Source: Bacteroidales bacterium
Lineage (GTDB): Bacteria > Bacteroidota > Bacteroidia > Bacteroidales > JAEINX01
Reading direction: 5' to 3'
Assembly: GCA_016342645.1 (NCBI GenBank)
Contig: JAEINX010000028.1
Span: 1-39,021, forward strand
DNA length: 39,021 nt
Below, piece by piece: positions 17,293-31,044 of this stretch. The notes under the pieces are model-generated. The model had not been told where the DNA came from. It worked only from the letters and a program-made list of their open reading frames with translations, and did no database searches. The position numbers and the translations under genes are program-made. Numbering within the stretch: position 1 is the stretch's first letter; each line of letters opens with the position of its first letter.

Positions 17293-17293
17293 A

Positions 17294-17377
17294 CAGGATA
17301 CAAGATACAGGATACAGGATACAAGATATTGGATACAGGATACAGGATACAGGATGCAGGATACAGGATGTAAGATA
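17294..17377 (+). repeat. Left array: 12 phased heptamers (CARGATA)
   Basis: Twelve consecutive 7-base units in perfect register: CAGGATA (x6), CAAGATA (x2), CAGGATG (x2), TTGGATA and TAAGATA. It begins one base past the superoxide reductase stop and ends 18 bases before the S23-type ATG. Units differ from one another by 1-2 substitutions but never by length. No spacers, so not CRISPR. It is complementary to the right array at 17785-17886. Confidence 0.9.
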
Positions 17378-17395
17378 AAATAAGGATATATTAAT

Positions 17396-17773
17396 ATGAA
17401 AAGTTATAGAGATTTACAAGTTTATCAATTAGCAAAAAGTTTAGCTATTAAAGTTCACAAGATGTCAATGAACTTACCTAAATATGAATTATATGAAGAG
17501 GGTAGTCAGATTAGAAGATCATCAAAATCTGTGGGAGCTAACATTGTTGAAGGATATGTTAAACGTAATTATAAGAGTGACTTTTTACGGTCAATAATTA
17601 TTGCCTGGGCCGAATGTGATGAAACTATTTATCATCTTGAAATGCTATTTGAAACCGGTTCATTAACAAATGAAAACGAATTTCGTTTTCTAAAAAGTGA
17701 ATACGAAAAATTGAGTAGTATGTTAAATAAATTTTATCAATCAGTATTTGAAAAACATATTAGTTCAAAATAA
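17396..17773 (+). CDS. S23-type four-helix-bundle protein inside a repeat-bounded element
   Basis: 125 residues matching the S23 / 23S rRNA intervening-sequence protein family: SYRDLQVYQLAKSLAIKV, then QIRRSSKSVGANIVEGY and four amphipathic helices. Related proteins are encoded in intervening sequences of 23S rRNA in Leptospira and Coxiella, and the Avd protein of diversity-generating retroelements shares the fold. Their molecular role is unsettled, with nucleic-acid binding suspected. Here the gene lies between superoxide reductase and ferritin genes, has nothing in common with their function, and is enclosed by inverted heptamer arrays. The frame is intact and full length. Confidence 0.85.
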   Translation: MKSYRDLQVYQLAKSLAIKVHKMSMNLPKYELYEEGSQIRRSSKSVGANIVEGYVKRNYKSDFLRSIIIAWAECDETIYHLEMLFETGSLTNENEFRFLKSEYEKLSSMLNKFYQSVFEKHISSK

Positions 17774-17784
17774 TCCAGCTTCAG

Positions 17785-17886
17785 TATCTTGTATCTTGTA
17801 TCTTGGATCTTGTATCCTGAATCCTGAATCTTGTATCTTGTATCATGAATCTTGTATCTTGTATCCTGTATCTTGAATCTTGTATC
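17785..17886 (-). repeat. Right array: 14 phased heptamers, inverted (TATCYTG)
   Basis: Fourteen in-register units: TATCTTG and TATCCTG with GATCTTG, AATCTTG, AATCCTG and TATCATG variants, plus a trailing TATC. They are the reverse complement of the left array. The array starts 11 bases after the S23-type stop and ends 29 bases before the ferritin ATG. In RNA the two arrays could pair over ~80-85 bases, putting the gene in the loop. Confidence 0.9.
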
Positions 17887-27975: not shown

Positions 27976-29130
27976 ATGTTTGAAACTTTATCACATCTCG
28001 AACTTCAACAATATTGGTGGATGATTATTTCACTATTGGGCTCATTATTTGTTTTAATGACATTCGTTCAGGGAGGGCAAACACTCGTTAGCCAAATAGC
28101 TAAAAATCAAACTGAAAGAAAAGTGTTATTTAATTCGGTTGGTAGAAAATGGGATTTGACTTTCACAACTTTAGTAACCTTTGGTGGAGCATTTTTTGCT
28201 TCTTTTCCTTTGTTTTATTCAACAAGTTTCGGAGGAGCTTACTGGGTTTGGATGATAATACTTTTTAGCTTTATAATTCAAGCCGTTTCCTATGAATATC
28301 GAACAAAAACAAATAATTTTCTCGGTGAAAAAACCTATAATACTTTTTTGTTTATAAATGGTTTACTGGCTCCAATCCTGATTGGAGTGGCAGTTGGTAC
28401 GTTTTTTACAGGCTCAGAATTTTCGGTTGATAAACTACAATTAACCAACATTAATGATCCTGTAATTTCCAGATGGGAGGGAGCTGCACACGGTCTCGAA
28501 GCTGTACTAAATATTACAAATCTTGCTCTCGGTTTGGCAGTTTTTACTTTGTCAAGAGTTCTTGGCGCATTGTATTTTATAAATAATATCGACGATGAAA
28601 CTCTCGTTGAAAGAATTGTAAAACAACTAAAGCGTTGCTCTTTTGCATTTTTGATTTTCTTTTTGACTTTTGTGGCTTTGCTATTGACGAAAAAAGGTTT
28701 TGCAGTTGATACAGTAAATCAAGAAGTATATTTAGAAAATTATAAATATTTTCACAATTTTCTGCACATGCCAATAGTTTTGATTATTTTTTTGCTGGGT
28801 GTTGTATTTGTTTTAATTGGAATTTATCTTGGAGCCTTTAAGAAATCTATAAAAGCAATTTGGTATGCAGGAATTGGAACAGTAGCAAGTGTTTTTTCTA
28901 TTTTCCTTATTGCCGGATTAAATAATACTGCCTTTTATCCTTCAACTTTTGATATACAAAATTCTCTTACGATTCAAAATGCATCCTCAAGTAAATATAC
29001 TCTAACTGCAATGAGTTATGTTTCACTCATTGTTCCTTTTGTAATTTTGTATATTTGGTATGCATGGAAATCATTAAATAAGAAAAAAGTTAGTAAAAAG
29101 GATATTGAAGGGGATGATATGGCCTATTAG
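27976..29130 (+). CDS. cydB: Cytochrome bd oxidase subunit II
   Basis: 384 residues with 8-9 membrane helices. The start LELQQYWWMIISLLGSLFV and FVQGGQTLV are characteristic, as is RKWDLTFTTLVTFGGAFFASFPLFY. It begins 2 bases after cydA. It is structurally required for the haem d/b595 centre. Two copies of the 11-base repeat start 3 bases past its stop, the left edge of the second S23-type element. Confidence 0.95.
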   Translation: MFETLSHLELQQYWWMIISLLGSLFVLMTFVQGGQTLVSQIAKNQTERKVLFNSVGRKWDLTFTTLVTFGGAFFASFPLFYSTSFGGAYWVWMIILFSFIIQAVSYEYRTKTNNFLGEKTYNTFLFINGLLAPILIGVAVGTFFTGSEFSVDKLQLTNINDPVISRWEGAAHGLEAVLNITNLALGLAVFTLSRVLGALYFINNIDDETLVERIVKQLKRCSFAFLIFFLTFVALLLTKKGFAVDTVNQEVYLENYKYFHNFLHMPIVLIIFLLGVVFVLIGIYLGAFKKSIKAIWYAGIGTVASVFSIFLIAGLNNTAFYPSTFDIQNSLTIQNASSSKYTLTAMSYVSLIVPFVILYIWYAWKSLNKKKVSKKDIEGDDMAY

Positions 29131-29133
29131 AAC

Positions 29134-29155
29134 GGTGGAAATGCAATGGAAATAC
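29134..29155 (+). repeat. Two left-hand 11-base repeats next to cydB
   Basis: GGTGGAAATGC (29134-29144) and AATGGAAATAC (29145-29155) match the consensus AATGGAAATAC of the long array at 29546-29699. They begin 3 bases after the cydB stop and lie 34 bases before the S23-type ATG. Further left copies, if any, have decayed. Confidence 0.7.
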
Positions 29156-29189
29156 AGAAGGAGTTTTATGAATAATTAAATTTATTATT

Positions 29190-29539
29190 ATGAAATTAGA
29201 GGAACTACAGGTTTATCAGTTATCAATGGATATTGGAGAGAAAGTTTGGAATATTGTTGCTATGTGGGATTTTTTTTCAAAAGATACTATTGGGAAGCAA
29301 TTGGTAAGATCCATTGATTTAGTAGCAGCTAATTTGAGCGAGGGTTATGGTAGATTTCATTATAAAGAAAAAAGAATTTCTCGTATTATTCCAGAGGTTC
29401 CTTATTTGAATCAAAAACATGGCTTACAAAAGCATTTAATAGAAAACTAATATCCGAAGATGAATTTAAATATTTCGAATCACAAATAAAAAATATTTCC
29501 GTAAAACTAAATAACTATATAAAATCAATTGGACAATAG
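29190..29539 (+). pseudogene. Second S23-type four-helix-bundle gene, frameshifted
   Basis: ATG 29190 reads KLEELQVYQLSMDIGEKVW, then QLVRSIDLVAANLSEGYGRF, the S23 signature. At the A6 run in AAAGAAAAAAG (about 29365-29375) the frame is lost and ends early at 29450. With one more A it continues KKNFSYYSRGSLFESKTWLT... to TAG 29537-29539, giving a normal 116-residue protein. The 350-base length is one short of a multiple of three, fitting one deletion. It may be decayed, slippage-corrected or a sequencing error. Unlike the first S23-type gene, it has 11-base rather than 7-base flanking units. Confidence 0.75.
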
Positions 29540-29545
29540 GAATAC

Positions 29546-29699
29546 GATGGAAATACAATGGAAAAACAAAAGAAATACAATGGAAAAACAATGGAAATAC
29601 AATGGAAATACGATGGAAATACAATAGAAATATAACGGAAACACAACCGTATTACAACAGTATCTCAATCGTTTTACAATTGTATTTCAACCGTACCCC
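29546..29699. repeat. Right array: 14 phased 11-base repeats, forward then inverted
   Basis: Nine forward units (consensus AATGGAAATAC, 29546-29644) are followed without a phase break by five units whose consensus, AATCGTATTTC read in the same register, is the reverse complement of the first kind (29645-29699). Thus the array can fold on itself, and its inverted part can also pair with the left pair of units at 29134-29155. It starts 6 bases after the S23-type stop. No spacers between units. Confidence 0.85.
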
Positions 29700-29877: not shown

Positions 29878-31044
29878 ATGAAAGCAAAAAAGCTAAAGGA
29901 AGGTATTTATTGGGTTGGAGCGATTGATTGGAATGTTAGAAATTTTCATGGCTATCTTACACAAAGAGGAACTACTTATAATGCGTATTTAATAATTGAC
30001 GAGAAAATAACTTTAATTGATACTGTTAAACCCGGATTTGAAAACGAGATGCTTGCTCGAATCTCAACTATAATTGATCCTTCAAAAATTGATTATGTTG
30101 TGTCAAATCATGTTGAGATGGATCATTCGGGTGCTTTGCCTGTAATTATGGAAAAAGCTCCAAATGCGAAGATTATCACTTGTCCAAAAGGTGATGAAGG
30201 TTTAAGGTTACATTATAAGAAAGATTGGGATTTTAAAATTGTAAAAACAGGCGATTCAATATCAATTGGGAAAAGAAATTTGCAATTTGTTTTAACACCT
30301 ATGGTACATTGGCCTGACAATATGCTAACATATGTTCCTGATGAAAAATTATTATTTTCTAATGATGCTTTCGGTCAGCATCTTGCAACATCTGTCAGGT
30401 TTGATGACGAATATCCGAATGATATTACCATGTTGGAAGCTCGAAAATATTATGCAAATATTGTTTTACCTTATCCTGGCCCTGTAAGAAAAGCTCTCGA
30501 AGCTACTGCAAATATTGACATTGAGATTATTGCCCCAAGCCATGGAATTATATGGCGACAAAATGTTGAGAAAATAGTAGATGAATATCATAATTGGGTA
30601 TCAAATAAAGTTGATAAAAAAGCCCTGATTATTTACGATACTATGTGGAAATCAACTGAAAAAATTGCTAAAGAAATTCAATATATCTTTGAAGACGCCG
30701 GATATGCCGCTCCTGTTTTTAATTTGCAGTTTAATCATATGTCTGATATTATGACCGAAGTTTTAACTGCTGAATTTGTTTGCATCGGCTCTCCTACTTT
30801 AAACAAAAATATTTTACCGTCTGTAGCAGGTTTTTTGACTTACTTTCAAGGTTTGGCACCTAAAAGTAGGAAGGGAATTGCTTTTGGATCTTATGGATGG
30901 GGCGATCAGAGTATTCCGAAAATTAGTGAGTTTTTAAAGAACTCGGGGATTGAGATTATTGACGCTTATAAAGTTAAATACATCCCCGACTCAAATGATT
31001 TAGCTAATATTAGAGAACGATTAACCGAGAAACTTAATAAATAA
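29878..31044 (+). CDS. fprA: Flavodiiron protein (FprA / A-type flavoprotein)
   Basis: 388 residues. Metallo-beta-lactamase half: HVEMDHSGALP supplies His78, Glu80, Asp82 and His83; His144 (PMVHWPDNM), Asp163 (SNDAFGQH) and a later His in APSHGIIW complete the diiron site. Flavodoxin half from ~255: IIYDTMWKSTEKIAKEI (FMN phosphate loop) and GSPTLNKNILPSV. There is no rubredoxin domain, so it is class A. It reduces O2 to water, or NO to N2O, with electrons from rubredoxin. It gives the cell a soluble O2 sink beside the membrane bd oxidase. Confidence 0.95.
   Translation: MKAKKLKEGIYWVGAIDWNVRNFHGYLTQRGTTYNAYLIIDEKITLIDTVKPGFENEMLARISTIIDPSKIDYVVSNHVEMDHSGALPVIMEKAPNAKIITCPKGDEGLRLHYKKDWDFKIVKTGDSISIGKRNLQFVLTPMVHWPDNMLTYVPDEKLLFSNDAFGQHLATSVRFDDEYPNDITMLEARKYYANIVLPYPGPVRKALEATANIDIEIIAPSHGIIWRQNVEKIVDEYHNWVSNKVDKKALIIYDTMWKSTEKIAKEIQYIFEDAGYAAPVFNLQFNHMSDIMTEVLTAEFVCIGSPTLNKNILPSVAGFLTYFQGLAPKSRKGIAFGSYGWGDQSIPKISEFLKNSGIEIIDAYKVKYIPDSNDLANIRERLTEKLNK

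Follow-up and report, generated by a model that had tools for sequence, protein, structure and literature searches.

With moderate confidence, we read the locus behind cydB (locus B) as a decaying S23 element, belonging to a class of operon-resident IVS relatives in which the array ends are matched to the S23 protein. The locus lies in a window of 39,021 nucleotides (the whole stretch of Bacteroidales DNA that was analysed), in which the genes examined around S23 are respiratory and redox genes. Locus B is a worn copy that matters chiefly as one member of a set; it is unfit as a model case because its gene is frameshifted and is not enclosed by its own arrays. Its features and neighbours are:

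27976..29130, + strand: cydB (cytochrome bd oxidase subunit II), upstream neighbour (Pfam PF02322, E 1.5e-72)
29135..29156, + strand: left array of two 11-base units, GTGGAAATGCA ATGGAAATACA, matching the right array better than any of 1000 shuffles
29190..29539, + strand: S23 / 23S_rRNA_IVP gene, frameshifted near 29366-29375, with PF05635 on both halves
29536..29645, + strand: forward array of ten 11-base units of the ATGGAAATACA type
about 29648..29695, - strand: inverted array of four to five diverged 11-base units, forming a predicted hairpin with the forward array
29878..31044, + strand: flavodiiron-type protein (ODP + flavodoxin), downstream neighbour (PF19583, PF00258)

The left array begins 4 bases beyond the cydB stop codon (29128-29130), and the first of the ten forward units overlaps the stop codon of the S23 gene. 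The unit is thus present on both sides of the gene, with inverted copies downstream, where most of the forward units also lie. Against 1000 dinucleotide shuffles, the right array reached a lag-11 score of 59.5 (shuffle maximum 14.5 over lags 5-16), forward and inverted units matched each other with a score of 37 (maximum 31), and left and right units with a score of 38 (maximum 30). The two left units and the 11-base right array reported in the preliminary description are therefore real; its right-hand count of nine forward and five inverted units shifts to ten forward and four to five inverted. A chance origin of the arrays is ruled out by these shuffles at locus B and by the control genes of the S23 survey given below.

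The preliminary description made no mention of the frameshift. Residues 1-62 are encoded in one frame (an 86-aa ORF) and the remainder in another, which ends at 29539, and no intact frame spans the whole PF05635 domain, which is the sole Pfam match of the gene. The N-terminal half scores 38.5 bits, above the cut-off of 33.8, and the C-terminal half, in the shifted frame, scores 31.4 bits, alone under that cut-off; the N-terminal part shares 77% identity with an intact homologue, L055. The broken frame may represent a pseudogene, a slippage-expressed gene or an assembly error. Slippage expression and a sequencing or assembly error are both possible because the break sits in an A-rich run (29366-29375) and both halves are well conserved.

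Folding of the whole of locus B revealed no RNA stem around the S23 gene (z -0.3); the predicted structure is a downstream hairpin in which forward and inverted arrays are paired (z -2.5). The first S23 locus of the window (locus A) is intact:

17293..17376, + strand: G-rich heptamer array (ACAGGAT/ACAAGAT), directly behind the stop codon of the desulfoferrodoxin gene
17396..17773, + strand: intact S23 gene, 125 aa (PF05635, E 4.3e-27)
17784..17886, - strand: inverted heptamer array, forming with the left array a long stem around the gene (by folding)

The predicted RNA of locus A has a folding energy of -190.6 kcal/mol, compared with -117 +/- 5 kcal/mol in shuffles (z -14.2). Its unit (7 bp, ACAGGAT) differs from the 11-bp unit of locus B, and the two S23 proteins belong to different clades, in agreement with the initial remark that the second locus repeats the design with a unit of another sequence and length.

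The overall comparison covered about 190 S23 loci, and flank statistics were calculated for the 146 whose flanks were usable, most of them in Bacteroidota genomes and a few in genome contigs; a contig search with a single S23 protein, without an alignment, as query yielded four loci only. Inverted flank complementarity (score at least 28) was found at 61.6% of the 146 S23 loci, compared with 1.1% among 266 control genes and 2.4% among 255 genes bordered by intergenic sequence on both sides. Arrays are thus regular at S23 loci, as the preliminary description had supposed, and about 38% of the loci fall under the threshold. The commonest period is 7, which accounts for 73 of the 111 loci with an assigned period, followed by 8. 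The genome of the window (G000) contains 14 S23 genes, most of them with short inverted arrays of periods 6 to 11; two, L006 and L007, lack arrays. Three contigs of this genome (C113, C138 and C189) end in or near a heptamer array, so the assembly was probably broken there and may lack some S23 copies.

One well-supported S23 clade (L006, L035, L075 and L082) is devoid of arrays. L006, L035 and L082 occupy one common genomic site, so this clade possibly represents a settled, vertically inherited form; at the same site L045, a member of another clade, carries arrays. At L042 two practically identical S23 genes with hexamer arrays lie in tandem, about 540 bases apart; this pair is a recent local duplication.

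The arrays have a defined polarity and position. G outnumbers C in the upstream array at 62 of 74 informative loci (the reverse at 12), C outnumbers G in the downstream array at 64 of 71 (the reverse at seven), and the G/C polarity of control-gene flanks is near 50%. The upstream array starts between -10 and +15 bases from the preceding stop codon at 38 of 65 measurable loci, and the downstream array ends between -10 and +25 bases from the next start codon at 37 of 62; the arrays usually reach from the stop of the preceding gene to the start of the following one. S23 genes are co-directional with both neighbours at 135 of 164 loci (control genes, 141 of 259), and these neighbours are genes of every kind.

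Repeat families follow S23 lineages, whether through co-inheritance or through co-transfer. The array period changed 25 times on a tree of 144 S23 proteins, compared with 35.8 changes on average and never fewer than 31 in 300 shuffles. The tree has a small number of columns and many weakly supported forks, and the signal partly reflects common descent of orthologous loci. The idea put forward with the preliminary description, that protein clade predicts repeat length, was thus borne out. Because of the orthologous descent, array similarity was compared only across families, between loci with unrelated neighbouring genes. For these non-orthologous pairs, mean similarity was 11.4 below 30% protein identity, 13.0 at 50-60% and 18.1 at 60% or more. 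With rising identity the share of cross-family pairs scoring at least 20 grew from 1.5% to 28.6%, whereas in the opposite orientation it rose much less, to 6.5%.

The relatives of the locus B protein illustrate this relationship. Those with 62-75% identity to L055 often have units of 7 to 11 bases with a GGT...CATT core. Two relatives from other families, L291 and L295 (69% and 54% identity to L055, respectively), carry the 11-mers GGTAATTCAAT and GGTGATTCAGT, of the same core as GGAAATACAAT at locus B; further relatives have 7- or 8-base units with a related core. Recognition of the unit by the S23 protein would be a plausible reason for the lineage link.

The same units also occur in arrays that lack an S23 gene (solo arrays). 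The 11-mer of locus B forms such arrays on five other contigs of the same genome (C13, C73, C128, C180 and C187), with no S23 match in the fetched sequence, up to 1.5 kb on each side. The suggestion that each S23 gene keeps a private repeat is refuted by these copies, and the units of most other S23 loci in this genome likewise form gene-less arrays. The heptamer GGATACAAGATRCA occurs 40 times, in several places without S23, and its reversed control pattern is absent. Solo arrays often lie directly behind a stop codon and may precede an inverted array, giving a gene-less hairpin; the right side of locus B already looks like this form.

In a 623-kb census, whose count per base is biased upwards because contigs C180, C187 and C189 were chosen with arrays already known, 15 of 16 short-period solo arrays matched a local S23 flank well, and for 13 of the 16 none of 132 foreign S23 flanks was as good a match. 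Sampling of five other S23-bearing genomes (congeners) yielded no solo arrays in 278 kb, and that of five S23-minus congeners one in 355 kb. Array spread is thus no general consequence of having S23, and the notion that an S23 genome fills with solo arrays as a rule is unsupported. The genome of the window also contains intergenic arrays of another kind, whose period is about 21 bases and some of which form inverted pairs; no S23 gene was seen near them:

L227:5710-6087, array of about 21-base period
L247:10365-10718, array of about 21-base period
L154:12694-12874, array of about 21-base period
L220:1-207, array of about 21-base period
L250:7251-7306, array of about 21-base period

Occupied and empty versions of one site were compared in the sdhA-sdhB gap of 45 genomes of a single genus. 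In seven genomes the gap is 8 bases long (TGGGCAAC or close) and in twelve others 13-141 bases, in both cases without S23; in ten genomes an S23 element (543-853 bases) fills it from stop to start codon. Between L262 and L264, the most similar occupied/empty pair, flank identity is 98.7% on the sdhA side and 90.3% on the sdhB side. The S23 genes in this gap belong to different clades by lineage (L005, L016, L129/L145 and L131/L144), suggesting that elements reached this site more than once. As regards the hallmarks of MITEs, inverted arrays are present at the ends of locus B, and no target duplication was visible between occupied and empty sdhA-sdhB sites. The S23-less sites often contain a different short palindrome that includes GTCGACC (L264, L265, L267, L269, L273 and L282).

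Leptospira and Coxiella burnetii both bear an S23p-type IVS in 23S rRNA. The Coxiella IVS encodes S23p, has complementary ends and is processed by RNase III; GACAGAT heptamers precede its S23 gene in a copy number that varies between strains (PMC4990558). In this IVS, as in the S23 elements, the S23 gene lies between complementary ends. Locus B differs in its position between protein genes (cydB and ODP/flavodoxin), its 11-base unit, its broken gene and its lack of an enclosing stem. The element kind is known in rRNA as the S23-bearing IVS, and we found its operon-resident form with lineage-specific arrays, and the link between S23 and short intergenic repeats, described nowhere among the openly licensed papers searched; beyond the remark on the Coxiella IVS (PMC4990558), none of these papers was found to connect S23 genes with tandem arrays.

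Several other repeat systems share some of these features. The G-rich heptamers of Xanthomonas and Nostoc (PMC4692102) and the TAACTGA repeats known from Beggiatoaceae (PMC4679880) are likewise short tandem units in intergenic gaps, and two Xanthomonas genomes contain 70-75 inverted pairs each; a text search of both papers found no S23. In Porphyromonas gingivalis the minisatellite BrickBuilt, which lies within a MITE, is also an intergenic tandem array within a mobile element of a Bacteroidota genome, but it has a 23-base unit and IS-like terminal repeats, and no S23 gene is reported there (PMC4596501). REP/REPIN sequences with RAYT resemble the S23 element in having a gene between repeats and gene-less repeat copies elsewhere in the genome. 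The S23 element, in contrast, has no Y1 tyrosine transposase, and its repeat is a tandem array of short units, not a single palindrome.

A complete S23 element consists of a G-rich short tandem array, an S23 gene and an inverted array of the same unit, and it occupies the whole spacer between two operon genes, from the stop codon of the first to the start codon of the second, as seen at many loci. The unit belongs to the S23 lineage and is inherited or transmitted with it, in line with the cross-family comparison. The element would be transcribed with the host operon and fold in vivo; folding predicts that intact copies form a long stem whose loop carries the gene, which is the architecture of the S23 IVS of 23S rRNA, and by analogy with IVS biology RNase III may excise it. 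We hypothesize that a ring-shaped S23 oligomer would bind the repeat units, roughly one per subunit, and that such binding would protect, copy or spread the element. As in TRAP, a ring that takes one unit on each subunit would account for units that hardly vary in length while their sequence is free. The net charge of S23 proteins is modest (median +2). The homologues 2rld and 2gsc (the latter being xanthomonad XCC0516), found by sequence, comprise five chains each, and an S23 pentamer has been described (PMC4990558). Gene-less arrays would be deletion derivatives or non-autonomous copies, and at locus B, with its frameshifted gene, the right side already resembles such an array.

It is unlikely, in our judgement, that the element moves at the DNA level like REP/RAYT, with S23 acting on the arrays as DNA ends and mobilizing both the full element and the gene-less arrays. 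Solo arrays that share their unit with the local S23 locus, units that point inwards with the G-rich strand towards the gene, and an sdh gap that is empty in some genomes and occupied by different S23 clades in others, as after repeated insertion, would all suit such a transposon; yet we know of no catalytic domain in S23, for which Pfam gives PF05635 alone, no target duplication was seen, solo arrays are few in other S23 genomes, and the strong operon co-directionality would be unexpected of a simple DNA transposon. This same co-directional placement, flush between stop and start codons, could instead point to a domesticated RNA control device, in which S23 would bind mRNA repeats in a TRAP-like manner and tune the neighbouring operon genes, with the stem kept under selection. 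The five-chain entries of the homologues and the long stem at locus A are consistent with such a device, which we nevertheless regard as improbable: neighbour genes of every kind, sites that are empty in close relatives and the broken gene at locus B indicate an optional element.

Ordinary slippage, which could raise simple repeats in any spacer with S23 genes merely landing in or beside them, would account for arrays without S23 and for the heptamer repeats common in several bacteria (PMC4692102, PMC4679880). Slippage does not make two flanks reverse complements, sets no polarity and ties no unit sequence to a protein lineage; this explanation is already strongly disfavoured and very improbable.

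Since 2006 a solved S23 structure has been available (PMC4990558), but we know of no function for S23 proteins, no way in which IVS elements move and no origin for the heptameric repeats of several bacterial groups, and the association between S23 and the arrays joins these three questions. S23 may be, and this we put forward tentatively, a lineage-specific binder of short tandem nucleic-acid units. S23 with its inverted arrays would then form a bacteria-wide mobile class, the rRNA IVS being just the member that ended up in rRNA, and would be the source of many intergenic repeats of 6-11 bases, most of them heptameric, that lack an explanation in Bacteroidota, cyanobacteria and perhaps xanthomonads. 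The dominance of heptamers might have its reason in this link. Since the arrays are the ends of the element and follow the protein lineage, direct testing of whether each S23 protein favours its cognate unit becomes feasible.

Twelve plasmid S23 loci were fetched, eleven of them cyanobacterial and one from Azospirillum (L326). Significant short-period arrays were found in ten of the twelve, nine of which also had inverted complementarity above shuffles; L318 had arrays without such complementarity. The full array plan was present at nine of the 11 cyanobacterial loci. L326 is a 23S rRNA gene (Rfam RF02541) with an S23 IVS, and its left units are heptamer-like (CAGAGGA CGGATGA CAGAGGA CGGAGGA), with an inverted set on the right; these heptamers were read by eye because the array statistic alone failed there. 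The predicted IVS RNA of L326 has an enclosing stem (z -8.9), which is also present at locus A but lacking at locus B. At three cyanobacterial plasmid loci (L319, L325 and L329), array-bearing S23 elements lie inside defence gene sets: between cas6 and cas4, cas10 and cmr3, and drmD and an MmeI-type enzyme gene, respectively.
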